Origin: Desulfomarina profundi
GTDB taxonomy: Bacteria > Desulfobacterota > Desulfobulbia > Desulfobulbales > Desulfocapsaceae
Direction: 5' to 3'
DNA length: 64,000 nt
Assembly: GCF_019703855.1 (NCBI RefSeq)
Contig: NZ_AP024086.1
Location: 3,678,501 to 3,742,500, forward strand
This document shows, one piece after another, positions 1,137 to 63,199 of the stretch. Each line of letters begins with the position of its first letter. Positions within the stretch are counted from its first letter, which is position 1. The translations under genes were made by a program, and so were the position numbers. A model generated the notes under the pieces. It ran no database searches and was not told the origin of the DNA. It saw only the letters and a program-made list of their open reading frames with translations.

Positions 1137-2465
1137 ATGACTACCTTTTTCAAAACATACTGGTCTTCCAGAAAACTGTACGCTCTCGGCTGGAAACAGT
1201 TTTTCAGCACCAACCGGACCCTGTTGCTCTTCTCTTTTTTCACCTTTCTTTCGGTATTGCTGTTGCGGTCATGGTTTCACTTTACCCATCCCGGTCTTTA
1301 TGTGGAGGACACCAGTCACTATTTCAATTATTTTTATGGGGATATAAGAGGGTTTAAAAGTCTGTTGCACAATCCAAACGGATATTTAACCATTCTGACA
1401 AACACCATCGCACTACTGACAGCAAAACTTGATGTTCGCCTGCAGCCGACAGTCTACCTCTTGACCAGTACCACCATGACCATAGCCGCCGTCATGGCCC
1501 TTCCATGCTCAGGTCTTTTGAAAAACAGATATATTCTCTTCTGCAGCCCTTTTCTGCTTGGGCTATCCGGAATAAACCACCTGTTTTACTATACAACACT
1601 GACATACCTTATTTATGTGTCGGTTATTCTTCTCTTCAGCCTTCTTTTCTGGGAAACAGGAGACAGCAACCTCGGAACAGGCCTGCTCTTTATCTTCCTT
1701 TCGCTCCTCATCTGGTCCGGCCCCTTCTCGGTTCTTACTGTACCTTTTTCCCTGATGTTTATCCTTTTTTTCAAAGGAAAAACACGGTTTTTGCTTGGCC
1801 TGATGGTCGTTGCCATATTCTACCTTCTCTGTGTAACCGACAAGACCATTATGCTGAGCAATATCTTCCATGGAGCCATCAGGAGGATATGGTTCAATAC
1901 CCTCATCCTCAACGTCTTTCTAATGGAGGCAAGGCATGTTGTTACCCCGAAAATCGAAATCTTCTTTACTCTGTTTTTCACAGGAATACTGTTTTTTTTC
2001 AGAAAGGATTCTTTTTACCTGAAAATTGCACTGCTGCTTTTCATCTTGATCAACGGCTCTCTTGCGCTCCTGTTCTTAAGCAAAAAATACCTGCTCTACC
2101 AGACACTTCTTCCCTGTTACCTTTTTATTCCTCAATTTTTCTGGCTCTTTTTCCTGCTTTTTACCGCCGACAGATTCCTCGTTAACCACAGGAAACTCGT
2201 ACACATGGGCATTCCCATTGCCTGCTGTTTTTTCGCTTTCATTCTCTACGACAACCTCCACCATCCGGAAAAATGGGAAATCTCCCGAATGCCGGCACTT
2301 CCCCGTTTCCTTGAAGTGGTTCACAACAATGAAATGCACCACTGGGAAAAAGAAAACAAACTCAAAATCATAACCACTCCAGGCCGGGGCTCATTCAGAC
2401 CTACTGCCAAAGTAGGAAAACGGGGAGATGATACAACCGAGGTCGAATTCATTCATGTAGAGTAA
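1137..2465 (+). CDS. Polytopic membrane protein of unknown function
   Basis: The 442-residue protein is very rich in Phe, Leu and Ile, with roughly ten hydrophobic segments between residues ~25 and ~385. It ends in a charged soluble tail of about 60 residues (HHWEKENKLKI onward). The overall look, including an early acidic loop (GLYVEDTSHYFNYF), recalls membrane glycosyltransferases or O-antigen/lipid-modification proteins, but I see no motif that proves it. It follows the glycosyltransferase fusion in the same direction, which fits an envelope-glycan role by context only. No convincing Shine-Dalgarno beyond the purine run ggaaaaaaa just before the ATG. Confidence 0.65.
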   Translation: MTTFFKTYWSSRKLYALGWKQFFSTNRTLLLFSFFTFLSVLLLRSWFHFTHPGLYVEDTSHYFNYFYGDIRGFKSLLHNPNGYLTILTNTIALLTAKLDVRLQPTVYLLTSTTMTIAAVMALPCSGLLKNRYILFCSPFLLGLSGINHLFYYTTLTYLIYVSVILLFSLLFWETGDSNLGTGLLFIFLSLLIWSGPFSVLTVPFSLMFILFFKGKTRFLLGLMVVAIFYLLCVTDKTIMLSNIFHGAIRRIWFNTLILNVFLMEARHVVTPKIEIFFTLFFTGILFFFRKDSFYLKIALLLFILINGSLALLFLSKKYLLYQTLLPCYLFIPQFFWLFFLLFTADRFLVNHRKLVHMGIPIACCFFAFILYDNLHHPEKWEISRMPALPRFLEVVHNNEMHHWEKENKLKIITTPGRGSFRPTAKVGKRGDDTTEVEFIHVE

Positions 2466-3155
2466 GTTTCTGTATCTCAAAATAGCTCTCGCACACACGC
2501 CATCGTATATTGACGTCCCAGAGCCACATACCAAATTCATTTCTGCTTTTTTTCTGAAAAGGTGGCCTCGGATCCAGTCCCACCAGTTCCACAATGAGTT
2601 GTCGCAGTGGTCTCCCTGTCTCCTGTTCATAACGGGCACAGAATATCTCAGCCTCACGGGTAAAACGCACAGCCATCGTTGAAATTTTGATCTCCGTATA
2701 GCCATCCTCTGCTCCGCTGATACAGTCTGAATAAGGGATATACGGTTTAATATCCACAACCGGAGTACCATCCAACAGATCCACACCTGCCAGATCAAGA
2801 AATAATTTCCCCTTTTCCCTGCGGATTCCAGCAAGTCTCACTGCAGACATGCCAAGATGGTTCGGTCTGTGGGGAGATCGACTCGCAAAAACCCCCACTC
2901 TTTTTTTCCCACCTAGCCGGGGGGACGAACAGTTACTTTCCATCCTTCATCAACAGCACGGTGAAAATAAAACTGGACCCACACATGGGAAAAATTCTCA
3001 AGCTCCCGAACCATTTCTTCCCGGTCGAAAGGCGGCAGCAATTCCAGCGAGGCTGTTACTGATGGTGCCATCCCCGGTTGACGGGGAATTCCGAATTTTT
3101 CCTTCAGGCAGGAATGAACAACACCCACTCTTTTTACAGTAAATTGTACGTCCAT
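2449..3155 (-). CDS. trmO: tRNA (N6-threonylcarbamoyladenosine-37-N6) methyltransferase TrmO, interrupted by a frameshift
   Basis: TrmO uses S-adenosylmethionine to methylate t6A37 in tRNAs that read ACY codons. The N-terminal part (MDVQFTVKRVGVVHS, KEKFGIPRQPGM, FSHVWVQFYFH, TVRPP) and the C-terminal part (RLGGKKRVGVFASRSPHRPN, GMSAVRL, DGTPVVDIKPYIPY, DPRPPF, NIRWRV) match the single ~235-residue family protein but lie in two frames. They join exactly after TVRPP at the G-run 2919-2924 (read as Cs in the gene); one extra base restores one protein ending at 2449. The start is chosen at 3155, with CGAGGTG just upstream. The tail overlaps the end of the preceding membrane-protein gene by 17 bases, convergent. 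I judge the break more likely a sequence error than real decay. Confidence 0.85.
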
Positions 3156-3164
3156 GACACCTCG

Positions 3165-3251
3165 GTAACACAAATTTAAAAAAAATATTATTATTCTTGA
3201 CAACAACCATACTGTGCTGTTACGGTAACACAACATTAAAAATCGTAACAC
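3165..3251 (+). promoter_or_regulatory. Three GTAACAC half-sites ahead of the metal-uptake operon
   Basis: GTAACAC occurs at 3165-3171, 3225-3231 and 3245-3251. The middle copy is also part of a small palindrome, GTTAC-G-GTAAC (3219-3229). The last two are exact direct repeats 20 bases apart (13-base spacer). The set lies in the intergenic region between divergent trmO and cbiM, which holds the cbiM promoter. Repeated half-sites before a nickel/cobalt transporter suggest an operator for a metal-sensing repressor such as NikR; that is inference, and no nikR gene is visible in this window. The leader is too short for, and shows no sign of, a cobalamin riboswitch. Confidence 0.5.
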
Positions 3252-3302
3252 TGCCTGAAAACAGTGTCAATCAGAACAGTTTAAGGTCAGGAGCTGTATT
3301 TC

Positions 3303-3914
3303 ATGCATATTTCAGAGGGTGTCCTCTCCACACCCGTTCTTATCACTGGGGGAGCAGTTGCCTTTGCGGGCACGGCTGTTGGTCTGAAAAAACTCAATTA
3401 TGATAAAATAATGAGTGTCAGTCTGCTTACTGCAACATTTTTTGTCGCTTCACTGATTCATGTCCCCCTGGGTCCCGGGAGTGTCCATCTTATCATGGGA
3501 GGACTGATGGGACTCCTTCTCGGATGGAGCTGTTTTCCCGCCATTCTCGTAGCCCTTTTTCTCCAGACTGTTTTTTTTCAATTTGGTGGCCTGACTGTCC
3601 TTGGAGTTAATACCACAATCATGGCTCTCCCGGCCCTTCTCTGTTACTACCTCTTCCGCCCCTGGCTCAAAAATAACGGTAATAAAAGAAAAATAGCCGC
3701 TTTCGGTTGTGGTTTTCTTTCCATCCTGCTCTCATCCATCCTCCAGGCTGTCGCTCTTACAATTACTGACAGTGGTTTCTGGCATGCCGCTCAACTTGTC
3801 ATCGCAGCCCACATTCCGGTTATGTTTATTGAGGGAATTATTACCATGTTTACCATATCCTTTCTGGCAAAGGTGCAACCTGAATTTCTGCAGATCAGCA
3901 AACAGGAAGAATAG
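3303..3914 (+). CDS. cbiM: ECF-type nickel/cobalt transporter substrate-binding membrane subunit (CbiM/NikM)
   Basis: The 203-residue protein begins MHISEGVLS. In CbiM/NikM proteins the mature N-terminal Met-His coordinates the metal, which fixes the start at 3303. About six or seven hydrophobic segments follow, with the family-typical HVPLGPGSVHLIMGGLMGLL segment near residue 55. It is the S-component that binds Ni2+ or Co2+ in the membrane and docks on the CbiQ/CbiO energising module encoded downstream. It is the first gene of a five-gene plus-strand operon ending at 6947. The presence of NikL- and NikK-like partners makes nickel the more likely substrate. Confidence 0.92.
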   Translation: MHISEGVLSTPVLITGGAVAFAGTAVGLKKLNYDKIMSVSLLTATFFVASLIHVPLGPGSVHLIMGGLMGLLLGWSCFPAILVALFLQTVFFQFGGLTVLGVNTTIMALPALLCYYLFRPWLKNNGNKRKIAAFGCGFLSILLSSILQAVALTITDSGFWHAAQLVIAAHIPVMFIEGIITMFTISFLAKVQPEFLQISKQEE

Positions 3915-3938
3915 CCCCTCCCGACAAAAGGTGATATT

Positions 3939-4627
3939 ATGATCCATATAAACAACTTCTCTCTGAAAATCCCATCACAAAAAATTTTTCCATCGCAGTC
4001 GGGACCTTCACTGTCTGTTGCAGTCCTGATGCTTCCAGTTATCCTCATATTACTTACGTCCCTGCCGGCCCGGGCACACAAGGTAAGAATTTTTGCCTGG
4101 GAAGAAGGTGGCATAATAAAAACAGAAGCGAAATTCAGCGGCGGAAAACCAGCGAGAAATTCAACTGTTACAGTGACCAGCCAAAAGGAAAATGAGGAAA
4201 TCCTGAAAGGAAAAACAGATGACAGGGGAGTATTTTCTTTTCCCATTCCGAAGAAAGCAAGAGACAACCAACTGAACCTCAAAATCACCATCAACAGCGG
4301 AGACGGTCATAAAAACAGCTGGCTGCTCAACGCAGAGGACTATCTTCCCGGAGTCAGCTCAACTCCCCGTAAAACTGAAAAAATGACAAAGGCTCCTCAG
4401 CGGAAACCGGATCAGGAGCAACAGTTGCCAAATGAAGTATTACTGCGAAAAATTATCTCTTCGGAACTAGACAGGCAACTCGGACCAATAAAAAGATCTC
4501 TGGCTCTCCAACAGGAAAAGCCGACTTCACTTCAGGATATCCTGGGGGAATCGGCTATATCCTTGGCATAGCCGGAATAGCCGCATATTTTCAAACAAGA
4601 AGAAAAGGGGAAAAAAAATTATCATGA
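3939..4627 (+). CDS. NikL-like accessory protein of the ECF metal importer, with a C-terminal frameshift
   Basis: The frame has a strong ribosome site (aaaggtgat) before ATG 3939, an N-terminal signal-like hydrophobic stretch (residues ~27-45, ending LPARAHK), a small beta-rich carboxypeptidase-regulatory-like domain and a charged linker. As read it stops at 4571 after QDILGESAISLA. Adding one G to the G-run 4544-4548 gives instead GGIGYILGIAGIAAYFQTRR, a single transmembrane helix with a basic tail, and a stop whose TGA overlaps the next ATG at 4624. That topology (signal, periplasmic domain, C-terminal helix) is what NikL-type accessory subunits have. Residues ~7-30 are encoded by a copy of the ~70-bp dispersed repeat. 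Confidence 0.75.
3960..4026 (-). repeat. Copy of the ~70-bp dispersed repeat inside the nikL-like gene
   Basis: Read on the minus strand this stretch contains CCCGACTGCGATGGAAAAA and then TGATGGGATTTTCAGAGA. It aligns with the copies at 20653-20728 and 29832-29904, which share an ACTGCGRCAGAAC-like core and a GGGATTTTCWGATAAA-like end. It is the only copy seen within an open reading frame, where it encodes part of the N-terminal extension before the signal sequence. Confidence 0.55.
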
Positions 4628-5406: not shown

Positions 5407-5411
5407 TTCCA

Positions 5412-7368: not shown

Positions 7369-10300
7369 ATGAAACTCAGAAAAAAGGAGCGGACGGTGCA
7401 CAGACTTGCTGGATATCAAATCACTGATACTGTCTACAACGGCGATACTCACGCAATATACAGGGCGGAAAAAAAACGGGACAACCTTCCCGTTATCCTG
7501 AAGTTTTTAAAGGATGACCATCCGGACAACGCCCTTCTTCGTAACTTTGCAAGAGAATATTCAATTATATCCTCCCTCCAGTCAGAACTGATAGTCAGAG
7601 CGTACTCTCTTGAAAAGTACAAAAACAGCCTGGTGATGGTCCTTGAAGACTGCGGTCATGTCACCCTCGCAGATATAATCAGTACAGTCAGGAAGAATCT
7701 GGAATGGACCCTCGGAATGGCAATCAGGATAACCCAGGCTCTTGAAGTCATTCACCGACATAACATTCTCTTTCTGAACCTCAACCCGTCCAATATTGTT
7801 TACAACAGTAAAACCCATTCCATAAAGATAATCAACTTCAGCAGAGCCGCTCTGGACCCTGGAAACGGCATACCAAACACAGACTTGAAAACACGTGAAA
7901 AATCACTCGCTTACATAGCTCCCGAACAGACAGGTCATTACGACAAGGTTCTTGACAGCCGTACAGACCTCTACTCTCTCGGGATCACGCTGTACCAGCT
8001 ATTCACGGGAGAGCTTCCCTTCACAACTGGGGACCCCATTGAACTTCTCCACCACCACCTGGCAACCCAGCCGCCGCCTCCTACCCTTAAGGACCCCTCT
8101 CTCCCCAAGGCCATCTCCGGAATAATTCTGAAGCTCCTGAACAAAACACGAAGAAACAGGTACCAGACATGCTCGGGCCTTCTTTCGGATCTGAACAGAT
8201 GTCAAACAGAGCTCCGGGATACAAAAACCGTAAGCTCCTTTCTACCTGGGGAAAGCGATTTTCATGATAAAATTGTTTTTCCGGAAAAACTCTTCAATCG
8301 ATCAGAGAACTTCAAACAACTGCAGCAGGCACTTGAAAGAAAAAACGGTGCTCCCGGTGTAATTCTCATTGAAGGGCTGCCGGGCATCGGTAAAACGGAA
8401 TTGGTTCACAGCTTCACCAGGACCCTGTCTCAACACTCTTTTCTTGTTGTCACCGGAAAGTACAACATGAAGGATCAGGACAGACCCTACACTGCTCTCG
8501 TAAAAATAATGCAGACACTCATCAGCAGAATACTCACCGGGAACAGAGATTCAATCCGCAGCTGGCAACAGAGAATTGAAGAGAAACTTCAGGAAAACTG
8601 TCAGGTTTTGACTGATATTATTCCTGACCTCGAACACATTATCGGGAAACATCCTGCCCCGCGCCCCCTCAGCCCCTTTGAAACCGAACAACGACTTTTA
8701 CGACTATGTCAGGATTTTCTCTCTCTTTTTGCCTCACCGGAAAGGTCTCTTGTCATAGTGCAGGATAATATTCACAGGGCTGACAGATCGACTCTCAAGC
8801 TCATGGGTAAGCTGCTCACTTCCAGCTCATTAAAAAACGTTTTCTTTATCTTATGCTACAGAAACAACGAGGTGAAAAAGGACCATCCTTTTTACAAGAC
8901 ACTGGAAACCGTCAGAAAATCTACCCTGAACCTCACAATAATAGCCCCCCCTCCTCTGGAAAAAAAACATGTCGTCCAGCTCCTGTCCCAGTTACTGCTC
9001 TCCCGGGAGGAAAAGGTAGAGCAGATTGCCCGGATCTGCCTTACTAAAACAGGCGGTAACCCGTTTTTCCTGAAGCAATTCATTCACTCCATGAACCAGA
9101 AAAAACATCTGTTTTTTGAGAGTGAAACCGGAAAATGGAACTGGGATCTCCACGAAATCAACCGCACAGAACTCTCAGAAAATATTGCTGACATTCTGAC
9201 CCAGAGAATACAGACGCTGCCTGTCGCTACCGCTGAATTGCTGCAAAGCGGCGCTTGTATAGGGAAATCATTTTCCCTGAAGATGCTTATGGCGGTTGTT
9301 GACAAAGAGTTGGATGAAATCCTGCCGCTTATCGAAGATCTCTGTTCCGATGGCCTGTTGATTGCCGATAACACCCTGAACAATAACAGAAATCCTGAGA
9401 CGAGGATCATTTTCGGCCACGAGCAGATACAGGAACTGGCATATTCCTTTCTAAATAAGGATAAAAAAGAGAAAATTCATCTGAAAATCGGTCGATTTCT
9501 TCAGAAACAGGCGCATTCCACAACCATAGAAGACACCGATTTTGATACAGTTTTTCACCTGAACATGGGGGTTTCTCTGATAACTTCACCAGACGAAAAA
9601 CTTGAGCTTGCCAGAGCCAACCTGAGGGCTGCCCGGAAGGCTAAAAACACGGCATCCAGGGAAACAGCCTTTTTGTACCTGCAGACAGCACTCTCCCTGC
9701 TGCCGGAAAACTGCTGGGAAGAACATTACGACCTCGCCCTGGAGGTTCACACAGAAGCCAGCGAAGCCGCATATCTCAACAGGGAATACGGGGAAACAGA
9801 CAGGCTTTTTTCCATAATCTGCCAAAAGGCAAAAACCTTTCCAGACAAGATAGACGCTTACCATATCAGGGCAAAAGCCCAGAAGTCCAACTATCAACTC
9901 GCAGAGTGTGTTGAAACCTGCCTTGAGGCACTGGACAAGCTTGGAGTACGTCTTCCACAAAATCCATCCTCCCTTCTGTCCGCAATCCTGTTTCTCCGAA
10001 CGCGTATTCTAGTGGCGGGCAAGGGGTTGGATTACCTGGAAAAACTGCCGGATGCAACTGATTCATCCTCCAGGGAGGCCATGAAATTTCTCATGGAAAT
10101 CAGCACTGCTGCCTATTGCTCACGCCCGAAACTCCTCCCGTTTATTACCCTCAAAACAATCCACCTCTCACTGAAATACGGAAACACACCCTTTGCGCTT
10201 ATGGCAGGATACCCCACCTACGGACTTCTTCTCTGCAGTTTTCCGGGAAGAAGCATTAAAACAGGCTATGCCTTTAGTAAACTAGCCCACAATGTTTCAA

Positions 10301-11316
10301 TTCTTTACGGGAACAGATCCAAAACAGTACATTCCTGTTACATGGTCAATAACCTGATTGCCCACTGGAAAGACCATATAAAAACGACACTCTCTCCACT
10401 CCTGGCAACGTTTAAGAAATGCAGGGAACTTGGAGAACTTGAACTGGCTGTCAACGCCGCATACTCCTACTCCCATCGCCTGTATCACCTTGGTCATAAC
10501 CTCAACAGAACCCAGCAGGAATTAACTATTTACCGGGAAGAAATTGAAAGACATGCACAGCCCATCACTCTTTACCGCCAGAACATGTACTGTCAGGCTG
10601 TCAGTAACCTCCGGGGGAAAAGCGATTTCCCGGAACTTTTCCTGGGAGAATTCTACAACGAAGAGGAAATGATACCCCTTCATATGGCAAGTAATGATTT
10701 CACCTCATTGTTTCAGCTCTACCTCCTGAAGACCATCCACTCCTATCTCTTTGAACACTTCAGCAAGGCCCTCAACTGCTCAAACCGGGCTAAAAAATGG
10801 CTACCTGCGGTCTTTGCCTCTATTGTTGTCCCCATTTTCTATTTCTACGATTCTCTCGTTCGCCTGGCCCTGTATGAAAAAACTTCACAGGGGAAACGAC
10901 TTCATTTCCGTTTTACGATTGCGTCAAACCAGAGCAAGATGAAAAACTGGGCAAAATACTCTCCCGACAATTATCACCATAAGTATATTCTTGTTGAAGC
11001 GGAAAGGGCCAGAGTAACAGGAAATCACCTTCAGGCTGTAAGGCTCTATGACCAGGCAATCAAGGAGGCAGAAAACTCAGGCTACATCCAGGAGAAAGCC
11101 CTCGCCCTTGAACTGGCTTCCCGCTACTATACCTCTCTTGATCAGAATCATCTTGCCAGGCCGTATGCAAAAGAGGCCAGATACTGTTACTACAGGTGGG
11201 GCGCAACAACTAAAGTTCGACAAATGGACAGGCAGAACAGCCATTCTTACCATGCACCGGACGATATCATAGCAAGAGACATCCTTTCCATTGAGACAGG
11301 CCCCGGTTTGACGTGA
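7369..11316 (+). CDS. Kinase-like / AAA-ATPase / helical-repeat signalling protein (N-terminal part of a trifunctional sensor)
   Basis: The 1315 residues contain an N-terminal Ser/Thr-kinase-like domain (about 10-275), an AAA ATPase (about 315-640; Walker A GLPGIGKTE, Walker-B-like SLVIVQDNIHRAD) and a long helical-repeat region to the end. The kinase fold keeps the beta-3 lysine (VILKFLK), but the catalytic-loop Asp is Asn (NLNPSN, where relatives have D-x-NPSN) and the DFG Asp is also Asn (INFS), so it is probably a pseudokinase. Relatives are single ~1700-1800-residue proteins that continue into GAF and histidine-kinase domains. Here that part is the next frame, and one extra base in the run at 11301-11306 would fuse them, giving TGPRFDVMAIFKASQ at the junction. 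Confidence 0.85.
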   Translation: MKLRKKERTVHRLAGYQITDTVYNGDTHAIYRAEKKRDNLPVILKFLKDDHPDNALLRNFAREYSIISSLQSELIVRAYSLEKYKNSLVMVLEDCGHVTLADIISTVRKNLEWTLGMAIRITQALEVIHRHNILFLNLNPSNIVYNSKTHSIKIINFSRAALDPGNGIPNTDLKTREKSLAYIAPEQTGHYDKVLDSRTDLYSLGITLYQLFTGELPFTTGDPIELLHHHLATQPPPPTLKDPSLPKAISGIILKLLNKTRRNRYQTCSGLLSDLNRCQTELRDTKTVSSFLPGESDFHDKIVFPEKLFNRSENFKQLQQALERKNGAPGVILIEGLPGIGKTELVHSFTRTLSQHSFLVVTGKYNMKDQDRPYTALVKIMQTLISRILTGNRDSIRSWQQRIEEKLQENCQVLTDIIPDLEHIIGKHPAPRPLSPFETEQRLLRLCQDFLSLFASPERSLVIVQDNIHRADRSTLKLMGKLLTSSSLKNVFFILCYRNNEVKKDHPFYKTLETVRKSTLNLTIIAPPPLEKKHVVQLLSQLLLSREEKVEQIARICLTKTGGNPFFLKQFIHSMNQKKHLFFESETGKWNWDLHEINRTELSENIADILTQRIQTLPVATAELLQSGACIGKSFSLKMLMAVVDKELDEILPLIEDLCSDGLLIADNTLNNNRNPETRIIFGHEQIQELAYSFLNKDKKEKIHLKIGRFLQKQAHSTTIEDTDFDTVFHLNMGVSLITSPDEKLELARANLRAARKAKNTASRETAFLYLQTALSLLPENCWEEHYDLALEVHTEASEAAYLNREYGETDRLFSIICQKAKTFPDKIDAYHIRAKAQKSNYQLAECVETCLEALDKLGVRLPQNPSSLLSAILFLRTRILVAGKGLDYLEKLPDATDSSSREAMKFLMEISTAAYCSRPKLLPFITLKTIHLSLKYGNTPFALMAGYPTYGLLLCSFPGRSIKTGYAFSKLAHNVSILYGNRSKTVHSCYMVNNLIAHWKDHIKTTLSPLLATFKKCRELGELELAVNAAYSYSHRLYHLGHNLNRTQQELTIYREEIERHAQPITLYRQNMYCQAVSNLRGKSDFPELFLGEFYNEEEMIPLHMASNDFTSLFQLYLLKTIHSYLFEHFSKALNCSNRAKKWLPAVFASIVVPIFYFYDSLVRLALYEKTSQGKRLHFRFTIASNQSKMKNWAKYSPDNYHHKYILVEAERARVTGNHLQAVRLYDQAIKEAENSGYIQEKALALELASRYYTSLDQNHLARPYAKEARYCYYRWGATTKVRQMDRQNSHSYHAPDDIIARDILSIETGPGLT

Positions 11317-12557
11317 TGGCCATCTTCAAGGCATCACAGGTTTTGACTGAAGAAACCACCTTTTATGAACTCCTTAAAAAGGTTTTGAAAATTCTCCTTG
11401 AAAGCTCAGGAGCCCAGCGAGGTGTCCTGGTTTTCAGGGAAGGTGATGATTGGCAGATAAAAGCTGTCGGGACCCGGGGAAGCAAACAGATTGAACTTCC
11501 GCGAACCATGGCTGTCGATTCCCAGCAGAATGCCTCCAGCGCAATACTGAATTATGTCATTCAAACCCGAAACAGTGTGATCCTTGACGATGCGACCCGT
11601 GAGGGGCTGTTCACAGACGACAGGTATATAATAGAAAAAAGACCCCGCTCAATACTCTGTAAACCGCTCTTTTACAGAAACAACCTCATCTGTATTATTT
11701 ACCTCGAAAACAACCTGACCACCCAGGCCTTCTCCCCCGACAGGCAGGAGCTGATCAGACTTCTTGGCGATCAGGCTGCGATCAACATCCGAAACTCCAA
11801 ACTGTTCAGTGAACTTGAAAACACGGTGGTGGAGCTGAATGAAGAGATAGAAAAACGAAAGAAAATACAGCTTCAGCTCCTGCACTCTGAAAAATTGAGT
11901 GCATTGGGGCGCCTGTCCTCCTCAATCGCCCACGAGTTCGGCAACCCCCTTATGGGGGTAAAATATCTACTTTCCGATCTGGTTGAACGTCCCGGTTTGA
12001 ACAGTGAAGACAGGGATCTCATCGAACTCGGCATCGAGGAATGTGATCGAATGAAAAAACTGCTCAAAGACATAGGCCAGTTCAATAAACCGACATCGGG
12101 GAAAAAAGAGAGCATCAGCCTTCACAACCTGATGGACAATGTCCTATTGCTCCAGCATAAATTTCTGAAATCCCGCAATCTGGAAATAAAAAGAAACTAC
12201 AGGGCCACCCATGATGAAATTTACGCTGTTCCGGACCAGATCAGCCAGGTACTGCTGAACCTGACAATCAACGCGGCTGACGCAACTCCCCAGGCAGGAG
12301 GAACCATTACGGTAACAACAGAAAACAGAGATGAGGAAATTCTTCTCTCCATTAAGGACATGGGAACAGGAATAGACCCGGCCATCCGCGACAATATTTT
12401 CGAACCGTTCTTTTCAACAAAACACGCGGAAGACGGTACAGGACTTGGACTGTCAATATCCTACGGAATTGTCAATCAACACCAGGGAACTCTCTCTTTT
12501 GAATCCGAACCGGGAAAAGGTACCGTTTTCACACTGACCCTCCCCCGGACAGACTGA
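11313..12557 (+). CDS. GAF-domain histidine kinase (C-terminal part of the same trifunctional sensor)
   Basis: A GAF domain (about residues 15-165) opens with FKASQVLTEETTFYELLKK. A short coiled coil follows, then a HisKA dimerisation domain with the phospho-accepting His in SSIAHEFGNPLMGVK, and an HATPase domain (N box NLTINAADATPQAGG, G1 DMGTGID, G2 GTGLGLSISYGIV). It autophosphorylates and passes phosphate to an unidentified response regulator; no receiver domain is attached. Start codons GTG 11313 or ATG 11316 overlap the upstream stop. No independent ribosome site is apparent and family members carry this module fused to the upstream domains, so I think the true product is one ~1730-residue protein split by a one-base deletion. 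Confidence 0.88.
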   Translation: MMAIFKASQVLTEETTFYELLKKVLKILLESSGAQRGVLVFREGDDWQIKAVGTRGSKQIELPRTMAVDSQQNASSAILNYVIQTRNSVILDDATREGLFTDDRYIIEKRPRSILCKPLFYRNNLICIIYLENNLTTQAFSPDRQELIRLLGDQAAINIRNSKLFSELENTVVELNEEIEKRKKIQLQLLHSEKLSALGRLSSSIAHEFGNPLMGVKYLLSDLVERPGLNSEDRDLIELGIEECDRMKKLLKDIGQFNKPTSGKKESISLHNLMDNVLLLQHKFLKSRNLEIKRNYRATHDEIYAVPDQISQVLLNLTINAADATPQAGGTITVTTENRDEEILLSIKDMGTGIDPAIRDNIFEPFFSTKHAEDGTGLGLSISYGIVNQHQGTLSFESEPGKGTVFTLTLPRTD

Positions 12558-17538: not shown

Positions 17539-17594
17539 TTTATCTGAAAAAGCTGCCTCAGAAGACCTGTTTTGCCGTAGTTGGGTTTTTATTG
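17539..17594 (-). repeat. ~70-bp dispersed repeat, second tandem copy (truncated)
   Basis: On the minus strand it reads cccaactacggcaaaacagg and ends ctttttcagataaa, the same core and end as the neighbouring copy but without the CAACAACA part. Its edge just reaches the rlmKL stop region. Confidence 0.6.
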
Positions 17595-19837
17595 TCTTTT
17601 CTGGGAATCCGTATTCCTGACCTCCCAGCATTTATGGATTTTACTGTTTCTCGAAAAATCAAAGGGAATGGTATCCTTACTGATATCTCTCAGGAAAAAG
17701 AGTTCTTGAAGGCGCGGGTCAAGGGAAAATTTTCTGAAATTTGTTGAAAAAAACAATATACCGGAAGGTTCAAGACGTGACATGGCAAGTTTAATAAGTT
17801 GAAAATGATCCCTTTGAATATCAAAAAACCTTTTTTCTTTTCTTGTGTTCGAAAAGGTAGGCGGGTCCACGAAGATCAAACCATACTTTCCCTTGTCCTG
17901 CCTGAGCCAGTCCATACCATCAGCCCGGATAATTCGGTGAGTCCCCTCACAGAACCCGTTGAGAGCCAGATTCAACCTCGACCATTCCGTATAGGTTGCA
18001 GAAAGGTCAACTGTTGTTGTCATTACCGCACCCCCTGCCGCAGCCTGGAGTGTGGCGCTTCCCGTATACCCGAAAAGATTAAGGAATTTCCTGCCACCGG
18101 CTACCCTGAAAATTCTTTCTCTGATTGGGCGGTGATCAAGAAACAACCCCGTATCCAGGTAATCAGTAAAATTGACAAGAAAGGAACAGGCCCCTTCCCT
18201 TACCTCATAAAGCTTTCTTTTGTTACTCTTTTTCTGATACTGTTTTTTTCCCTTCTGTCTCTCTCGTGTTTTTATAAAAATTCTATCAGAACGAACACCC
18301 AGCACATCCCTTACCTGTCTGACAGCGAGTTTAAACCTTTTCCGCGCCAGTTCCCTGTCAATTGTTTTAGGTGGGGCATACTCTTGAATATGAACCCATT
18401 TTTCATAAAGATCAATACTGATATTATATTCCGGTAAATCCCTGTCATATATTCTGAAACAGAAAACCGACTCCTTTGCCGCCCATCTGATGGTTTTTTT
18501 CAGGTTTTTCCTTAACCGATTTGCAAATTCATTGTCTGTCCGCTCCTGTTGTGGCAGGTTCCACAGGAAGGATGTGGGCGGTGACCTGTCAATTCTGCCA
18601 ACAAGCAGTCTGCAGGGCAAAGATCCGTTAAAAAGATGAAACCGTTTTTTCCAGACAAGGTTAAAACGATCACCCAGGTCCGCATTTGATATAAAAACCC
18701 CGACATCCCACCCTGGAAAAGAAAGACTGCACTTCCTGCCAAAAGCCCGGTACAACCACGAAACCTGCTCCACCTCCGAAAGCCGCTCACCGTAAGGGAG
18801 GTTGGAGAGGATCATTCCCTGGGTTGCCGGAGACTGAAGCGTTGCCAGTTCCGCCCGTTTAATGGTTATTTTCTCTTCCAACCCAGCTCTTGAAATGTTC
18901 TCTCTTGCACTTTTTATGACGACAGGATCACAGTCGTATCCGATCATAACCGGCCACTTTCTGGCAAGACCCGCCTCTTCCCGGAAAACAGCTTCATCTA
19001 CCAGACCCTGCCATAATTTCGAGTCATGTTGCAGCCAACCCATAAAACCGAAATAAGACCTGGATAATCCCGGCGCGGAATCCCCGAACATCAGTGCAGC
19101 TTCAATCAATATTGTTCCTGTTCCGCACATGGGGTCAAGCAGGGGTTTTGAGCTTTCTGCCAACCACCCGCTTAAACCGACAAGGGCCGCAGCCAGGGTT
19201 TCCTTAAGAGGTGCAATGCCCCGGATACCCGATAACCCCGGCGGTGGAGACTTTCTCCGGAAAGATCTATGAAAACGTCTGCTACTGAATTCTGGATGTG
19301 AATATGAATTTTGACTCCCGGCCTGTTTTTTTCCACTGAGGGTCGTCTACCCTCTTTTTGTCGAAAAAAATCAACAAGCGCATCCTTCACTTTCAAGGCA
19401 GCATATCTGCTGTGGGTAATTTTGCCTTTTCCGGAAAGGGTACATTCAACCGCAAAAGTGGTTTCCACTGCAAGGTGACTGTCCCAGGGAATATCCATAC
19501 ACTCCCGGTATAACTCTTCTTCATCTGTGGCTTTTATCCTGTGCAGGTGCAGCAGAATTTTTGATGAAAATCTGGACCAGAGACAAGCCCTGTAAGCTGA
19601 CTCCAGCGAACCTTCCCAGGAAAGAATTCCTCTGCCACAGGTGATTTTCTCACCACCGAATATACGGATTTCCTCCTCAACCAGAGTTTCCAGACCGACG
19701 GCGCAGATGGCAGTGAGGCTTTTTTTTCTGTTCCTGTTTTCTCTCTTTTTCATTGGTTTTTTTGAACTTGAATTCGGCGTTTCAGAAAATGATTGCCTTG
19801 CCCTCATGTTTTTTTCACACTGGAACTGATATTGCAT
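17589..19837 (-). CDS. rlmL: Bifunctional 23S rRNA methyltransferase RlmKL, interrupted by a frameshift
   Basis: RlmKL methylates G2445 and G2069 of 23S rRNA. The N-terminal frame (19837-19172) contains a THUMP domain and ends RRGYRVSGALHLLRKPW. The second frame (to 17589) starts near LLDPMCGTGTILIEAALMFG (RlmL motif) and ILSNLPYGERL, and its C-terminal half is the RlmK domain (LNLFGYTGSATLQAAAGGA, LIFVDPPTFSN). Adding one base to the C-run 19219-19222 converts the end of the first frame to GIAPLKETLAAALVGLSGWL and joins them into one ~745-residue protein, close to the usual ~700. An N-terminal basic extension of ~35 residues may indicate a later true start. Likely an intact gene with a sequence error. 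Confidence 0.87.
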
Positions 19838-19942: not shown

Positions 19943-20167
19943 TAGCCTGCATTTCTCATCAGTTCAGGCGGCGTCAGCTTCAAAATTTTCAACAGTAAAT
20001 AATAGTGACCTATATTTGCTGTTGAAATATTGCAGAAGATAGTGTCGCCTGGGCTGACCTTGGGTGAACATTGTGTAAATTTTGGTCGATTACCGATAGC
20101 TGACTAATTATTTGTATTCTACAGCTATTCTCAAAATTGACACAATGTTCATGAGAAATGCGGGTTA
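19943..20167 (-). repeat. 225-bp repeat element, copy 2 (inverted relative to copy 1)
   Basis: It is the reverse complement of the 7003-7227 element over its full 225 bases, at roughly 85-90 percent identity by eye. The long-range hairpin arms are 20070-20084 and 20132-20146. The tight hairpin reads TTTCAACAGTAAATA on one side and TATTTGCTGTTGAAA on the other; compared with copy 1 one base pair is exchanged on both arms, so pairing is kept. It abuts the ~115-bp repeat, sharing the TTA at 20165-20167. Confidence 0.85.
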
Positions 20168-20282
20168 GTGCCTTACTTCTGAATTTCTGTCATAAAAAAC
20201 AAGAAAACAGGGAAGGTGTTTTGAAATCAAATGGTTAGGTTTATTTCCATGGCACTTATACCCCCTTGTGGGATGTTAGTTT
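20165..20282 (+). repeat. ~115-bp dispersed repeat, copy 1
   Basis: Begins TTAGTGCCTTACTTCTGAAT, contains AACAGGGAAGG and ATGGTTAGGTTTATTTCC, then ATGGCACTT, a short C-rich/G-rich hairpin (CCCCCTTGTGGG) and ends near GTTAG. Nearly the same sequence occurs at 43609-43724 (same orientation) and 26282-26396 (opposite). AGTGCC near the start is inverted as GGCACT about 85 bases later. The reading frame that runs through it is not credible as a gene. Confidence 0.85.
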
Positions 20283-26281: not shown

Positions 26282-26396
26282 CTAACACCCCACAAGGGGG
26301 TAAAAGTGCCATGGAAATAAACCTAACCATTTAATTTCAAAAAAAACTTCCCTGTTTTCCTTTTTTTATGACAGAAGTTCAGGAGTAAGGCACTAA
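26282..26396 (-). repeat. ~115-bp dispersed repeat, copy 2 (minus orientation)
   Basis: On the minus strand it runs TTAGTGCCTTACTCCTGAAC ... GGTTAGGTTTATTTCC ... ATGGCACTTTTACCCCCTTG ... GTGTTAG, matching the copies at 20165 and 43609. It lies 28 bases upstream of the REC-HD-GYP start codon, inside its probable promoter region. The rest of the gap, 26397-26591, shows no ORF or clear structure. Confidence 0.85.
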
Positions 26397-26591
26397 TTAC
26401 CCATGATGTTCAACTTCATAAACGAGTCTGTTTATAAAAAAAACAATCAAAAAAATCAGCAAGCATGGCTGGATCAAACAGCATCGACTATTGATTGCTT
26501 TCTGGGTACCAACAATAAAGTAACTGGTCACAGGATGGCTGCGATTCAGTATTTTTTATTTTGATGTTACAAAATTGTTATTGCTTTGAGT

Positions 26592-27655
26592 CTACATTTT
26601 CCAATATTTTTTTGCAACTTCCCTAACCATTTCAATTGCCGGATGGATACCTTTTTCTTCAGCAAGACTTGATATGAACGTATAGTCCATTTTTTTATTC
26701 ATTTCATTTTTTTCTTTAATACCTGCAAGTTCACAGAGAGTTGCAAAAACTCCCTCTTCCATCCCGGAAAAATTATATCCTCCTTCCAGAGAAAAAAAAA
26801 TTCTGCCATCGCAGAGTTCCTCTGCAAGGTTTACCAGGACTCTCGTCATATAGGCAAAACCGTCCCCCGTCACCCTCATGGCGCTGATACCGTCATCTAT
26901 ATATGTATCAAATCCGGCAGATACAAGGATCAGTTCAGGCCGATATTCTCTGCAAACAGGCTTAACTACTGTGTTAAAAATATTAGCATACTCCATATCC
27001 CCCTGTCCCCCGGCAACGGAATATTCAAGGTATATCCCTGACCCTTTCCTGAACCTGTTTCACGCAGGGACCCCGTTCCCGGATAAAGCGGATACTGGTG
27101 TATTGAGAGGTAAAAAACTTCATCTGTTTCATAAAAAGCATTTTGAGTACCATTTCCATGGTGTACATCCCAATCAACAATGAAAATTCTCTTTATACCG
27201 TATTTTTTCCGAGCATGTTGTGCAGCTATGGCAATGTTGTTAAAGAGACAGAAACCCATAGATCTGTTTTTTTCAGCGTGGTGACCAGGAGGTCTCACCA
27301 GCCCGAAACCATTATCCACACTTTTATTGAAAATAAGATCCATAGCCCCGACTACTGCCCCAACTGCATGGCAGGCAGCATTAAAACTCTCCCCTGATGT
27401 ACAGGTATCCACATCAAGAACTGAATATATCTTACCTGAAGTTGCAGCTACCTGGTTTACCAGATTTTCCGTATGATTATAGAGAAGTTTTTCTTTTGAA
27501 ACCGGTGTAATTTCCGGTTCTATAAAATATTCTCTGTTTTCTCCCTTATTGAGTATTTCATATATTCTTTTAATTCTTCCCGGGGACTCTATATGTGTGC
27601 TTCCGGGATCATGGGCCAGGAAAATTTTATCTTTGAATATAGCCGTATTACGCAT
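26592..27655 (-). CDS. Histone deacetylase / acetylpolyamine amidohydrolase family protein, interrupted by a frameshift
   Basis: This zinc deacetylase fold has LAHDPGSTHIESPGRIKRIY, RPPGHHAEKNRSMGFCLFNN, the metal-binding block IVDWDVHHGNGTQNAF, then after the break VSAGFDTYIDDGISAMRVTG and SLEGGYNFSGMEEG (catalytic Tyr region). The first frame runs off after NIPLPGDRG. One extra base in the run at 27007-27011 gives NIPLPGGQGDMEYANIFNTV and joins the two frames into ~354 residues, a normal size. It probably deacetylates a polyamine, acetoin-related or protein substrate; bacterial roles vary. Preceded on this strand by the yeeE terminator, so it is its own unit. Confidence 0.85.
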
Positions 27656-29052: not shown

Positions 29053-29232
29053 AGATACTCTCCCTGTTAAAATAGACAAAAAGTAACTTCAGCAAATTAT
29101 ATTTGTAAATTTCATACACACCCAAAAAAAATTTGTCAATATAAACAGCTTGAAAACAGAATATATACCACTTTGTGGTGTTTATTTTTTAATAAAAATA
29201 TTAATGAGTTATATAACATATTTTTTCAAACC

Positions 29233-42473: not shown

Positions 42474-42763
42474 TTTCGTGGAGAATCCAGTTGGTTTTTA
42501 TGACGTTATTTGGAATGGGTTGTAAGAATAAGCAAGATCTTCTTATAATTCTTTTCCCAGAATGAAATATTTTCGTCCTGGAATTTTAGAAAATATGATC
42601 AGTGGTTTTCAGGTAATCATCTTAAAAGATTCAGGATTAAAGAAAGAAAAAACCACTACCCTGAACCTTGCAATTTTTTTTTTAGAATTGATAGAATAAA
42701 AAAGAAAATTATTACAAAAATGTATTACAGCTCAGAAACTTTTAATACCAGCTTTTCAAGTTG
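42474..42763. other. Non-coding stretch between the NifA-like gene and the tRNA-Ser promoter
   Basis: About 290 AT-rich bases. It must contain the promoter of the NifA-like gene (minus strand). I see no ORF, hairpin or repeat that I can support. Confidence 0.4.
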
Positions 42764-48727: not shown

Positions 48728-49342
48728 ATGGGATTATTAAAAGGAACTGCAACATTTGTAAAATTTACCCTTGAAGGTGACCTGCCGGAAAATCCGCTTG
48801 AATATATTTCTGAAAGAATCTTGGCTTTTTCGTTCCAGGATATTGATGACACTTTTGATGAATATTCAATCGGTTGGGTTTCACTTGTTAACATGTTTGA
48901 TTCCTCTTTTGCATATGCATCGTATTCAGCGGGGGATTATATCGTGCTGACATTACGTATAGATGAGCGCAAGGTTTCTTCGGCAATACTCAAAAAGATT
49001 GTCCAGAAAGAAGAGCAGCGGGTAATGGCGGAACGACAATTGCCAAAGCTAAGCAGGAGCATGAAAGTAGAGATTAAGGAAAGAGTGCGGGTTGAACTTG
49101 TGAGAAAGGCCATACCTGTTCCCTCAACCTTCGATGTCTGCTGGAATCTTTCGGAATCTTCACTCCTGTTTTTCTCTACGAATAAGAAAATCCATGCTGT
49201 ACTTGAGGATTTTTTTAAAGAGTGTTTCGGGGTTTTTCTGCGGCAGCAGATCCCTTATACGGTAGCGAAACACCTGCTGACTGAGGAGCAACAGCTTCGT
49301 CTTGCCGATCTCACTCCTCATGTTTTTACATGGGTAAGGTAA
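48728..49342 (+). CDS. rdgC: RdgC-like recombination-associated protein (short form)
   Basis: The 204-residue protein starts MGLLKGTATFVKFTLEGDLP and contains FSFQDIDDTFDEYSIGWVSL and ILKKIVQKEEQRVMAE, features of RdgC, which forms a DNA-binding ring that limits RecA loading. It is shorter than the ~300 residues of enterobacterial RdgC; the C-terminal part may be provided by the next gene. The 287-base gap before it (from tRNA-Lys) is AT-rich and holds promoters of both. Confidence 0.82.
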   Translation: MGLLKGTATFVKFTLEGDLPENPLEYISERILAFSFQDIDDTFDEYSIGWVSLVNMFDSSFAYASYSAGDYIVLTLRIDERKVSSAILKKIVQKEEQRVMAERQLPKLSRSMKVEIKERVRVELVRKAIPVPSTFDVCWNLSESSLLFFSTNKKIHAVLEDFFKECFGVFLRQQIPYTVAKHLLTEEQQLRLADLTPHVFTWVR

Positions 49343-49515: not shown

Positions 49516-50066
49516 ATGGATTTAGTAGATCTTATAGCGGAAAAAAGGTTTCTCGGGCAGGAGTTTTTAACCTGGCTCTGGTGGAAAAGTGAAGAGAGGG
49601 GTGGTACCGTTCTTCTTCCGGAATCAGGTGATATTGCAGTTGTTTTTGAAAAGCATATGTTGCTGGAGTTTGGAGAGGGAGAAACAACTGAAAAAATAAT
49701 CTGCTCTGGGCTCCAGGCCGAGTTACAGGAAGCGCGGACCGGCCTGAAGATGGGTAAAAAACTCGAGCAGGCGCGAATTGTTCTGACAAAAGATGATTAT
49801 GAATTCAGTTTTACTCTTGCAGCTGGTTTGATGGAATTCAGAAATGTGAGATTGCCCAAAACAGAGATAACTGAAGGACGGGGGAGAATAACAGTGAAGA
49901 AGTTGAAGGGATGATCCTGGAGCGGATTTTTCTTTTTGAGGAACTTATTCGCCTTGTAAATGAATTGTTTCTTCTTTTTCTTGAAGTCAGAATTTCCCAG
50001 GACTGGCGGGAAGAATTGCTGAAAATCGGGAGTTGGATTAATGGTTCTGTAGAATCCTTCCAAAAT
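49516..50066 (+). CDS. RdgC-associated conserved protein, interrupted by a frameshift
   Basis: The first frame (132 residues) starts MDLVDLIAEKRFLGQEFLTW and stops after EGRGRITVKKLKG. An overlapping frame from 49911 encodes MILERIFLFEELIRLVNELF and ends at 50066. Adding one G to the run 49880-49884 turns the first tail into EGRGENNSEEVEG and runs on into MILERIF, making a single ~183-residue protein. I recognise the FLGxEFLTWLW opening as a companion of short RdgC genes; its function is unknown, perhaps supplying the missing part of RdgC. Confidence 0.65.
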
Positions 50067-56134: not shown

Positions 56135-56359
56135 ATGGCCAGGCAGAAACTCAGGGAAATTGTGATAAACCGGGATTGGTGCAAAGGGTGTGGTATATGT
56201 GTTCACTTTTGCCCGACGAAGGTTCTGGAGCTTGACGCAGAGGATAAATCGGTGGCGGTCAGGCCGGAGGACTGTATCTGTTGTAAAATGTGTGAACTAC
56301 GGTGCCCGGATCTCGCAATCGAGGTACTGACAGACCAGGGTGAGAACAATGAAGAATAA
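56135..56359 (+). CDS. korD: 2-oxoacid:ferredoxin oxidoreductase ferredoxin-like subunit (KorD)
   Basis: The 74-residue protein has two 4Fe-4S motifs, CKGCGICVHFCP and CICCKMCELRCP. It passes electrons from the catalytic subunits to free ferredoxin. First gene of the korDABC operon; it overlaps korA by a few bases (ATG 56349 before its stop). The ATG has aagagg upstream. Confidence 0.92.
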   Translation: MARQKLREIVINRDWCKGCGICVHFCPTKVLELDAEDKSVAVRPEDCICCKMCELRCPDLAIEVLTDQGENNEE

Positions 56360-57496
56360 TATCAGATTCGTCCAGGGCAACGAGGCTTGTGTTGAGGGTG
56401 CACTGTATGCGGGGGTCGACTTTTTTGCCGGTTATCCTATTACGCCTTCAACGGAAATTGCAGAAATACTTTCAAGAAAGCTGCCGGAGCGTGGAGGGAA
56501 GTTTATCCAGATGGAGGATGAAATAGCCTCGATGTGTGCTGTGATCGGTGCTTCGCTTACCGGACGAAAAGCCATGACAGCAACGAGCGGTCCCGGCTTT
56601 TCCCTTAAACAGGAGGCGATAGGTTATGCCTGCATGACCGAGATTCCGTGTGTGATTGCCAATGTGCAGCGGGGAGGACCATCAACCGGAAATCCCACCC
56701 ATGTCAGCCAGGGAGATATTAATCAGGCAAGATGGGGAACCCACGGAGACCATGCTATTATTGCCTTGACAGCATCAAATCATCAGGATGTTTTTGAAAT
56801 TACAGTTACGGCATTCAACCTCGCTGAGACCTACAGGACTCCGGTTATCCTGTTATTTGATGAAGCAGTTGGTCATATGCGCGAAAAACTGATTATCCCG
56901 GAAACGGGAGAACATGAAGTCGTAAGTCGACTGCGCACATCCCTGGGTAAGGATGTTGACTACCATCCTTACCTGCCAAGAGAAGATGGTCGTCTGCCCA
57001 TGTCCGACTTTGGGGCCCATCACCGATACAATGTGACCGGACTGTTTCATGACATGTGGGGCTTTCCTTCAAATAACCCCGGGTGGTGAATGAGCTTCTC
57101 CGTCATCTTGTTGACAAGATAGATAACAATATTCACGTCATTACAAGGTACAAGGAACATTATCTCGAGGGAGCGGAGTATATAATGATTTCGTACGGAT
57201 CTTCTGCGAGATCCGCAATCCATCTTGCCAGGGAAAGAAGGGCCAAGGGGGAAAAGATAGGTGTTCTTGAGCTGCAATCTCTCTGGCCGTTTCCGGTGGA
57301 GATGGTAAAAGAAAAATGTGCTAATGCAAAGGCTGTTCTTGTGGTTGAGATGAACATGGGACAGATTACCGCCCAGGTCAAGGCTGCTGTTAAAAAACCG
57401 GGTCGTGTATTTCTTGCCAATCGAATTGACGGGCACCTTGTAACACCTTCAGATATCAAGAAACTTCTTCGGGTTATCCAGGGGAGGGGAGTATAA
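56349..57496 (+). CDS. korA: 2-oxoacid:ferredoxin oxidoreductase alpha subunit (KorA), interrupted by a frameshift
   Basis: KorA carries the pyrimidine-type domains of the thiamine-diphosphate enzyme. The first frame contains AGYPITPSTEIAEILS, MEDEIASMCAVIGASLTG, TATSGPGFSLKQEAIG and MRTGxP-like TEIPCVIANVQRGGPSTG, and ends SNNPGW. The second frame starts VNELLRHLVDKIDNN and includes IMISYGSSARSAIHLARE and VVEMNMGQI. Adding one base at 57077-57083 gives SNNPGVVNELLRHL and one ~380-residue protein of normal size. ATG 56349 is preferred over GTG 56340. Likely a sequence error. Confidence 0.9.
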
Positions 57497-58916: not shown

Positions 58917-58934
58917 GTTGCGACCTTCTGTCTG

Positions 58935-60297: not shown

Positions 60298-60312
60298 GGA
60301 AAAATACACTTT

Positions 60313-60777
60313 TCACCATTTGCAGAACGGATTGGTGACAAGGTTTGCGTTGTAGTATCTGGGATCGTCAGTTACTTCCCGGTCGATCCATTCGGGAACG
60401 GCAAAAGTTTCTCCTTCGTGTTGCAGTTCAATTTCCGCAAAAACCAGACCTTTGTTTTCACCTTCAAATTCGTCAACTTCCCAGGTAAACCCTTCAAAGG
60501 GAATTTTATATCTTGTCTTTTGTATCAGCGGTTTATGGCAGAGTTTTTCCAGGATCTCATTTGCTTCGGATACCGGGATTTCATATTCAAATTCCAGTCG
60601 GGTTTCTCCTTCACTGGGTCCCTTTACAGTGAAAAATCCTCGTTCCCCGATAATTCTTACACGCACAGTTCTTCCCTTCTCCGTGCTGAGGTATCCCTGG
60701 CAATATTTTTTTCCTTGTGCCAGGTTGCGCCAGTTTTCATTTTTCAGGAGAAACTTTTTTTCAATTTCCTGTCCCAT
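60313..60777 (-). CDS. CYTH-domain protein (triphosphate tunnel metalloenzyme family)
   Basis: The 154-residue protein begins GQEIEKKFLLKNENW, the EXEXK motif of the CYTH family, followed by RVRIIGERGFFTVKG, TRLEFEYEIP and AEIELQHEGE. These bind triphosphate and divalent metal in a beta-tunnel. Possible activities include inorganic triphosphatase or adenylate cyclase; triphosphatase is commoner in bacteria. Upstream lies the EI24-like gene. Confidence 0.9.
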   Translation of the reverse strand: MGQEIEKKFLLKNENWRNLAQGKKYCQGYLSTEKGRTVRVRIIGERGFFTVKGPSEGETRLEFEYEIPVSEANEILEKLCHKPLIQKTRYKIPFEGFTWEVDEFEGENKGLVFAEIELQHEGETFAVPEWIDREVTDDPRYYNANLVTNPFCKW

Positions 60778-60844
60778 TTTTATCCTTTTTTCAATACATT
60801 ATTGTGGGAAACCATACAGTTGTCACTGGCTCGGGGGAGTTTCA

Positions 60845-61648
60845 TTACTCCTGTTCCCTCTCAATACTCAATGATTCGGTCTTCTGCAGCTCAATGGCGG
60901 CGAAATTCAATGTAGCATGAATAGTAAGAACAGGAAAGAGCAGAGCCATGGCGAATATGTTTACTATCGGGATCATGGAAACCAGAGCCGGTAATATACC
61001 GATTCTGAGAGATGGGGCGGAATGATATTGCAACCATCCCAGTTTACTCCCCAGGGACCACCTGCGTCGTGAGGCGGGATAGTCGATAAACATCAGGGCC
61101 GAATAATATGTGTAGAGCAGAAAAACTGCCACCTGACCGATTCCTGGAATGAAGTTGACAAAAAGTGCGGCCACAGTGACAAGGATTCCGAAAAAGGCTA
61201 TTTTGATGCCTTCCAGGATATCTATAAAAAATCCGCCCAGGGTAAAATTTTCGTCGGCGTCAAAGAGTTCTCCGGCATACAGTTTTTCGGCAGCCGTACT
61301 GAGAAAGGCGTAACCCGGGGTAGTAATGGTGTAGGCCAGAAGAAAGGCAAGGTAGAATGAGACAATTCTGGAAATTACATTGAAAAGCCAGCTGGCGACC
61401 AGCCAGCCTTTGAATTTGATCCAGCCGATGATTGTTCCACTGTCCGGTGGATGAGCAAAAAAATTGCCGGTGAAACCAGTAATAAGGTCAATGGAAAACA
61501 CATACCCAACCCAGGTCAAGGCAAAAGTGATAAGGACGAGCAGGAGTGACCAGCCGAGCAGGCGTTTACGACGGAACATAAAACCAATGGAAGAGAGCAG
61601 GGGGATCCTGGTGCGGGTTTCCAGCCGTGATTCAGTATATCTTTTCAT
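60845..61648 (-). CDS. EI24/CysZ-like multi-pass membrane protein
   Basis: The 267-residue protein has about five or six hydrophobic segments and the EI24-family features FYLAFLLAYTITTPGYAFLS, VNFIPGIGQVAVFLLYTYYS and DYPASRRRWSLGSKLGWL. CysZ relatives import sulfate in some bacteria, but this subgroup is not characterised. It lies upstream of, and in the same direction as, the CYTH gene. Confidence 0.78.
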   Translation of the reverse strand: MKRYTESRLETRTRIPLLSSIGFMFRRKRLLGWSLLLVLITFALTWVGYVFSIDLITGFTGNFFAHPPDSGTIIGWIKFKGWLVASWLFNVISRIVSFYLAFLLAYTITTPGYAFLSTAAEKLYAGELFDADENFTLGGFFIDILEGIKIAFFGILVTVAALFVNFIPGIGQVAVFLLYTYYSALMFIDYPASRRRWSLGSKLGWLQYHSAPSLRIGILPALVSMIPIVNIFAMALLFPVLTIHATLNFAAIELQKTESLSIEREQE

Positions 61649-61821
61649 TTTTATTCAATACAGAATTGAGGTGAGAATATTGTTTTTTCTGTCTGTCCAT
61701 GCAGGCAGTGCAGCCCTGAAATTGTCGACAGCGTTGCAGAATATAGGTATTCTTGTTTTTCTGTAAAGGGTAGACTATTTTCACAAAGGATTATTTCCCA
61801 TATTTCACAGGGTAAGGTACA

Positions 61822-63199
61822 ATGGCAGCAATGGGAACAAAAAAGGGAAAAAAAGAAAAACCGTTCTTTGTCTGCCGGGAGTGCGGCTACAAGACAGTGA
61901 AATGGCTTGGACGATGCCCTGAATGCGGAGAATGGGAAAGTCTGGAAGAACATCAGCCGGTTTCTCCAGGCAAAGCTCTTTTGAAAGGAGTTGCTGAGCC
62001 GGTCCCCTTGCATCTGGCTCCGGACGGTGATGAGGAGCGCGTCAGCACAGGTATTGAAGAGCTTGACAGGGTTCTTGGGGAGGGATAGTTCCCGGTGGTG
62101 TGGTTCTTATCGGGGGAGAACCGGGGATTGGAAAATCGACCCTTCTTCTTCATCTGCTGGCTTCCATTGCCGATGAGAAGAGGAAAGTACTCTATGTTTC
62201 AGGTGAAGAGTCGTCCCGTCAGATAAAAATGCGGGCACGACGCCTGGATGCCATTCACCCCATGGAGTTTCTGGCAACGGAAAACGGGGTGGAAAATATC
62301 GTTGCCATGGCAACCACCATGAAGCCGGGACTTCTGGCTGTTGATTCAATACAGACCCTTACCTGTTCTGAGATATCCTCTTCTCCAGGTTCGGTTACCC
62401 AGGTCAGGGAGTCGGCTTACCGGCTCCTTGAGTTGGCAAAAAAAGAGAACATTCCTGTGGTGCTCGTGGGGCACGTGACCAAGGACGGAGCCATTGCCGG
62501 GCCAAAAGTTCTGGAGCATATGGTTGATACGGTTCTCTATTTTGAGGGGGATCGCAGTCATGCTTTTCGTATTCTGAGAACAGTCAAGAACCGTTTCGGC
62601 TCAACCAATGAAATTGGGGTTTTTGAGATGAAGGAAGAGGGACTGGTACAGGTGAAGAATCCTTCGGAGATTTTTCTTGCGGAGCGTCCCCTGGATGAAC
62701 CCGGTTCCGTGGTACTGCCGAGTGTGGAGGGAACCAGGCCGATCCTGGTGGAGGTCCAGGCACTGGTCAGTCCGACTAATCTTGGAACGGCCAGAAGGAC
62801 GGCAATCGGGGCCGACCCCAGAGGCTTTCACTGCTCTGTGCTGTGTTGGAAAAGAAGGCGGGACTCGACATGTATGGCCATGATATATTTCTCAATATTG
62901 CAGGAGGAATGCGCATTGATGAACCAGCCCTTGACCTGGGGGTAATCTGTGCCCTGGCCTCAAGCCTGATGGAAAAGCCGATCCCTTCGGCTACCGTGGT
63001 TTGTGGTGAGGTCGGACTTGCCGGGGAGATCAGGGCGATAGGTCATGTTGATATCCGGGTGAAGGAGGCGGAACGGCTGGGATTTACCCGGTTTATACTG
63101 CCGAAAAGCAACAGGGAAAGAATGAGCTGGAAACCGCAGATAAGACTGGTGGGGGTTTCCACGCTTCAGGAACTGCTTGAAATAATATTTGTTGAATGA
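61822..63199 (+). CDS. radA: DNA repair protein RadA, interrupted by two frameshifts
   Basis: RadA is a RecA-like branch-migration helicase. The N-terminal C4 zinc finger (CRECGYKTVKWLGRCPECGE) and EELDRVLG lie in frame 1; Walker A GGEPGIGKSTLLLHLL, VSGEESSRQIKMRARRL, VIDSIQT-like AVDSIQTLTC and KNRFGSTNEIGVFEM in frame 2; the Lon-protease-like C-terminal domain (YGHDIFLNIAGGMRIDEPAL, GEVGLAGEIRAIG) in frame 3. One base added at 62077-62080 gives LGGGIVPGGVVLIGG, and one at 62816-62819 gives GADPQRLSLLCAVLEKKAG. The restored ~459-residue protein has normal size. Sequence error is the likely cause. Confidence 0.92.

Follow-up and report, generated by a model that had tools for sequence, protein, structure and literature searches.

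Eight genes in the 64,000-base stretch of DNA analyzed here (hereafter the window; bases 3678501-3742500 of one 4,307,339-base contig, in a genome with a completeness of 95.6 and a contamination of 2.36) appear broken at nine places through the loss of one base in or near a short run of G or C. With a probability of about 94%, these breaks are consensus errors of the assembled sequence, with no counterpart in the organism. The reads, from a homopolymer-prone platform and most likely a long-read one of the nanopore type, would have undercounted G/C runs with a true length of about 5 and more, and the consensus would have retained the shorter count, presumably without polishing; the cells themselves would carry intact genes. 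A sequence-only reading of the window had proposed uncorrected long-read homopolymer deletions. This proposal is supported by the direction of the changes, the type of run, the dependence on run length, the spread along the contig and the rarity of such events in relatives, whereas its long-read part is what we infer from the single 4.3-Mb contig together with the error pattern.

The genus-mates numbered six, with assemblies fragmented into 310-590 contigs, and the first named matches of one window protein were Desulfobulbaceae MAGs and a Desulfopila isolate (88-91% identity). Syntenic contigs of relatives were taken for comparison, and 950 open frames from eight relatives were compared with the window by tblastn; losses and gains were placed with a purpose-written frameshift-aware protein-DNA aligner. 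The runs named by the sequence-only reading (G6, G5, C4GG, C4, C5, G5, C4GGG, G4 and C4) were all present at the positions given below. Its claim that each is exactly one base short was borne out, as at each of the nine places tblastn found two neighboring matches on one strand that differ in frame, the shift always having the same sign (2 mod 3). The aligner placed a loss at each of them, so that one extra base restores family sequence on both sides, and frameshift-tolerant translated comparison with full-length relatives found one open frame per gene in the relatives. Support for a loss came from at least four relatives at eight sites and from two (G003 and G001) at the remaining one. At the DNA level, the relative was exactly one base longer around the site in all 51 relative-to-window comparisons, for which relatives had been picked for having open frames.

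The gene for tRNA methyltransferase O (trmO, minus strand) has lost a base at the G6 run 2919-2924, leaving pieces at 2449-2943 and 2913-3251 between which the Pfam domain TrmO_N is divided (loss called with seven relatives; one base longer in 6/6). A nikL-type nickel/cobalt ECF transporter gene (3939-4571, plus strand) has its loss close to the 3' end, at the G5 run 4544-4548 (five relatives; 5/5), and a relative's protein matches the NikL model NF058648. The giant hybrid kinase gene (plus strand) is interrupted near the C4GG run 11301-11306, between a part with Ser/Thr-kinase and AAA domains (7369-11316) and one with GAF, HisKA and HATPase domains (11313-12557), as assigned by Pfam; it is a single frame of 1745 aa in G003 and of 1352 aa in G001 (2/2 one base longer). 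In rlmKL (minus strand), a loss near the C4 run 19219-19222 cuts the RlmL/THUMP part (19172-19837) from the methyltransferase part (17589-19163), both recognized by Pfam (seven relatives; 6/6). A gene of the histone-deacetylase family (minus strand) is broken at the C5 run 27007-27011 into pieces at 26966-27655 and 26592-26996, of which one carries positions 1-206 and the other positions 211-294 of Pfam Hist_deacetyl (4/4 one base longer).

Downstream of an RdgC-like gene (48728-49342), an unnamed gene starting at 49516 (plus strand) has its loss near the G5 run 49880-49884 (seven relatives; 6/6); its window piece had no Pfam match at E 0.01, and a relative's partial copy had no NCBIfam match at E 1e-10. 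The alpha subunit gene of a 2-oxoacid:acceptor oxidoreductase (korA, plus strand) is broken at the C4GGG run 57077-57083, with pieces at 56340-57089 and 57083-57496 into which POR_N and PFOR_II fall separately (seven relatives; 6/6). Finally, radA (plus strand; aligned region 61760-63199) contains two losses, at the G4 run 62077-62080 and at the C4 run 62816-62819, each called with eight relatives and each with 8/8 relatives one base longer; around the first, residue identity was 17-19/20 on one flank and 19/20 on the other, and a relative's homologue is RadA by TIGR00416. The alignment gap fell in or against the run in trmO, the histone-deacetylase-family gene, korA and both radA sites, and one base off it in the nikL-type gene. 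In rlmKL, the rdgC neighbor and the kinase, it fell a few bases off, which does not fix the exact base there, and local identity around the kinase site was low. The family names given by the sequence-only reading (TrmO, NikL-type, Ser/Thr-to-histidine hybrid kinase, RlmKL, histone deacetylase family, RdgC neighbor, 2-oxoacid oxidoreductase alpha and RadA) agreed with these results. It had also described the genes as unrelated and of an essential type; unrelated they are, but the second term is loose, as several of the eight have no known essentiality.

Two further candidates in the window were dropped by judgment: a loss at 42723, which depends on an 80-aa relative frame in AT-rich sequence next to tRNA-Ser and was judged to be non-coding, and a gain at 29056, which lies upstream of a conserved MSEESVF start. 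Five places with the support of one relative each (4592, 27807, 29287, 54959 and 63367) were not counted.

Two other features of the window were observed. Between 28000 and 33000, the GC skew switches sign, with positive values following negative ones, and GC content falls to about 0.37-0.39; a replication origin would look like this. Copies of a dispersed repeat about 115 bases long occur at 20165-20280 and 26282-26397, with matches on both strands; copies were found in all six genus-mates among the matches listed, and it resembles a REP or a small inverted-repeat element.

The losses are confined to one type of run. In a census of runs of at least 4 that lie entirely within the coding sequence aligned in the window, there were 248 G/C and 1087 A/T runs, and all nine losses were assigned to G/C runs (chance expectation with 248/1335 runs being G/C, P about 3e-7); none was found in the 1087 A/T runs. 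If each broken run is assumed to have originally been one base longer, the loss rate rises with true G/C run length, albeit on small numbers: 0/184 at length 4, 5/50 at 5, 3/11 at 6 and 1/3 at 7. One aspect counts against an artefact, namely that A/T runs up to 10 are intact in the window, a base bias sharper than generic homopolymer error predicts.

Such events were rare in the relatives. With the same pipeline, the window gave 10 losses (including that at 42723) and no gain in 50,987 aligned bases, compared with three losses and four gains over the eight relatives, where 307,954 bases were aligned, a total in which about 10 kb was counted twice owing to overlapping stretches. Of these seven events, several resemble gene starts and three have a G run of four in their context. 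With a looser filter, two places in relatives were supported by at least three other genomes.

Elsewhere on the contig, the same aligner was applied to a 610-kb sample with open frames mainly from one relative (G020), in which 161 genes (158,534 bases) could be aligned. There were 16 one-base losses and one doubtful gain; the latter, at 547755, comes from a minus-strand relative frame lying between ribosomal genes of the plus strand, probably a shadow frame. Of the 16 losses, 15 had a G/C run of at least 4 no more than about 12 bases away, vs 13% expected (P 1e-12), and the loss at 3557835 adjoins only a G3. A/T runs were not enriched near these losses (7/16 vs 36%). Outside the window, losses occurred in three regions: each of the two 200-kb stretches flanking it and a single place at 505665. 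It should be noted that the sample was uneven, as the two flanking stretches and a further one of 50 kb supplied 150 of the 161 aligned genes. The other 11 came from eight 20-kb stretches scattered over the contig, of which two yielded no aligned gene; no break was seen in these stretches. Judged by relatives' homologs, the genes broken outside the window include those for glutamate synthase, NuoC/D, NuoF, class II DAHP synthase, ThiH, PrmA, RecD2, lumazine synthase, an MltB-type transglycosylase, MsrA/MsrB and a NuoH-like protein, the last below NCBIfam cut-offs. For both lumazine synthase and class II DAHP synthase, the sole matches in the genome were the two halves of one broken gene (for DAHP synthase, the search covered class II).

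It is conceivable, but in our view unlikely, that the missing bases reflect DNA modification: methylation of a motif with CC before a G run would distort the signal, and one base would be omitted from the consensus there. CC preceded the G run at 5/9 window sites vs 25/239 intact runs (P 0.002), a motif picked only after the sites had been inspected. Outside the window, the figures were 3/13 vs 93/703 (P 0.40), three of the 16 sites being left out as an A/T run had been assigned to them, and the combined figures were 8/22 vs 118/942 (P 0.004). Should this reading be true, the error map would hold a trace of the organism's methylome.

Among explanations in which the breaks belong to the organism, the one that survives best, although we consider it very improbable, is that of real mutations in a lineage defective in mismatch repair, where slippage at G/C runs broke many genes. 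In mismatch-repair mutants, slippage at G/C runs exceeds that at A/T runs, and MutL (contig 2107350-2108460) appears broken in the assembly: by eye, its conserved C-terminal part has to be followed through two additional frames, and each frame change has G runs nearby. On the other hand, a MutS domain match lies within an 892-aa open frame and the MutL breaks resemble all the others. Slippage should also yield gains, whereas the window and the outside sample together gave 25 losses and no convincing gain, and some A/T-run losses would be expected, whereas the window had none. In addition, a cell whose sole lumazine synthase and sole class II DAHP synthase were broken, together with a glutamate synthase and three Nuo-type subunits, would be hardly viable; the search for other copies covered the first two of these.

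Two controls, neither of them decisive, bear on the same question. The region of rpoBC and ribosomal-protein genes (510-550 kb) showed no coding break in 35.8 kb, as judged by reading, after six event clusters had been set aside as short or minus-strand frames or gene starts. This region contains 18 G/C runs of at least 5, for which about 2.5 losses were expected by hand calculation (chance of zero, about 8%). The absence of breaks is mildly surprising, and it is also the outcome expected from selection on real mutations, in line with the mutator explanation. The rRNA genes found comprised three full-length SSU genes, all equally long, and three LSU genes, and the three operons showed no run-length difference at the G/C runs common to all, a comparison blind to any loss that the copies have in common. 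This agreement lowered our probability for an artefact from 0.95 to 0.94 and made a mutator very slightly less improbable. As separate observations, one 23S rRNA gene (contig 384660-387800) exceeds the other two in length by 189 bases (3141 vs 2952) and contains an insert whose ends are complementary, reminiscent of a stem-borne intervening sequence; a partial 23S rRNA copy, separate from the full-length genes, lies at contig 1006503-1007486.

Programmed -1 frameshifting or transcriptional slippage, by which the pieces would be joined in the cell, is barely credible: the sign of the breaks agrees with a -1 shift, and G6 and C4GGG could be read as slippery strings, but the single open frames in relatives leave no conserved shift site, the affected genes are unrelated, and runs of only 4-6 bases are short for transcriptional slippage. 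Equally remote are ordinary pseudogenes or phase-variable tracts, since, although a single-base change in a run is the usual lesion of phase variation, the latter typically involves long tracts in surface or modification genes, whereas the tracts here have 4-6 bases and the genes serve mainly metabolism and tRNA, rRNA and DNA maintenance; further against both readings stand the double losses in radA and, as it appears, in mutL, the occurrence of losses only, and flanking protein sequence that is still conserved, up to 20/20 residues. Losses without convincing gains, restricted to G/C runs, dependent on run length and scattered over unrelated genes that could hardly all be broken in a viable cell, fit undercounted homopolymers in an unpolished single-contig assembly.

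The finding is most probably an artefact, and its value lies in a warning to users of this genome. The 25 losses (without that at 42723) in the 209.5 kb of coding sequence that could be aligned would correspond to some 400-500 false breaks over 4.3 Mb, as extrapolated from a non-random sample. Until the sequence is polished, gene lists, pseudogene counts, claims of gene fusion or fission and completeness estimates derived from this chromosome should be considered unreliable.

Not all homopolymer-prone platforms produce long reads; Ultima is a short-read platform. In PMC11471861, GC homopolymer errors on Ultima are reported to rise right after 4 bp, and older nanopore callers to lose accuracy once homopolymers exceed 8 bp (AT) or 6 bp (GC). 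The platform could therefore not be named from the pattern alone, a nanopore-type one being most likely. For nanopore reads, homopolymer length is underestimated, mostly through deletions and more so with increasing length, and C/G runs fare worse than A/T runs beyond length 2 (PMC8486125). The deletions, undercounting, C/G bias and length effect are the same here; that study deals with reads, whereas here the error persists in the consensus and A/T runs seem to be spared. In a comparison of R9.4.1 and R10.4 assemblies, which states that homopolymer indels lead to frameshifted and fragmented gene calls until polished and that low-coverage bins need polishing (PMC9262707), residual homopolymer indels fragment gene calls as they do here. 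Long-read metagenome chromosomes, as described in PMC6469205, share with the present contig that they are closed, environmental and subject to erroneous frame shifts that spoil gene calls. The unpolished contigs of that study had 6 frame shifts per kb aligned, and the present contig has about 0.12 per kb of coding alignment, which suggests that the present consensus is much better.
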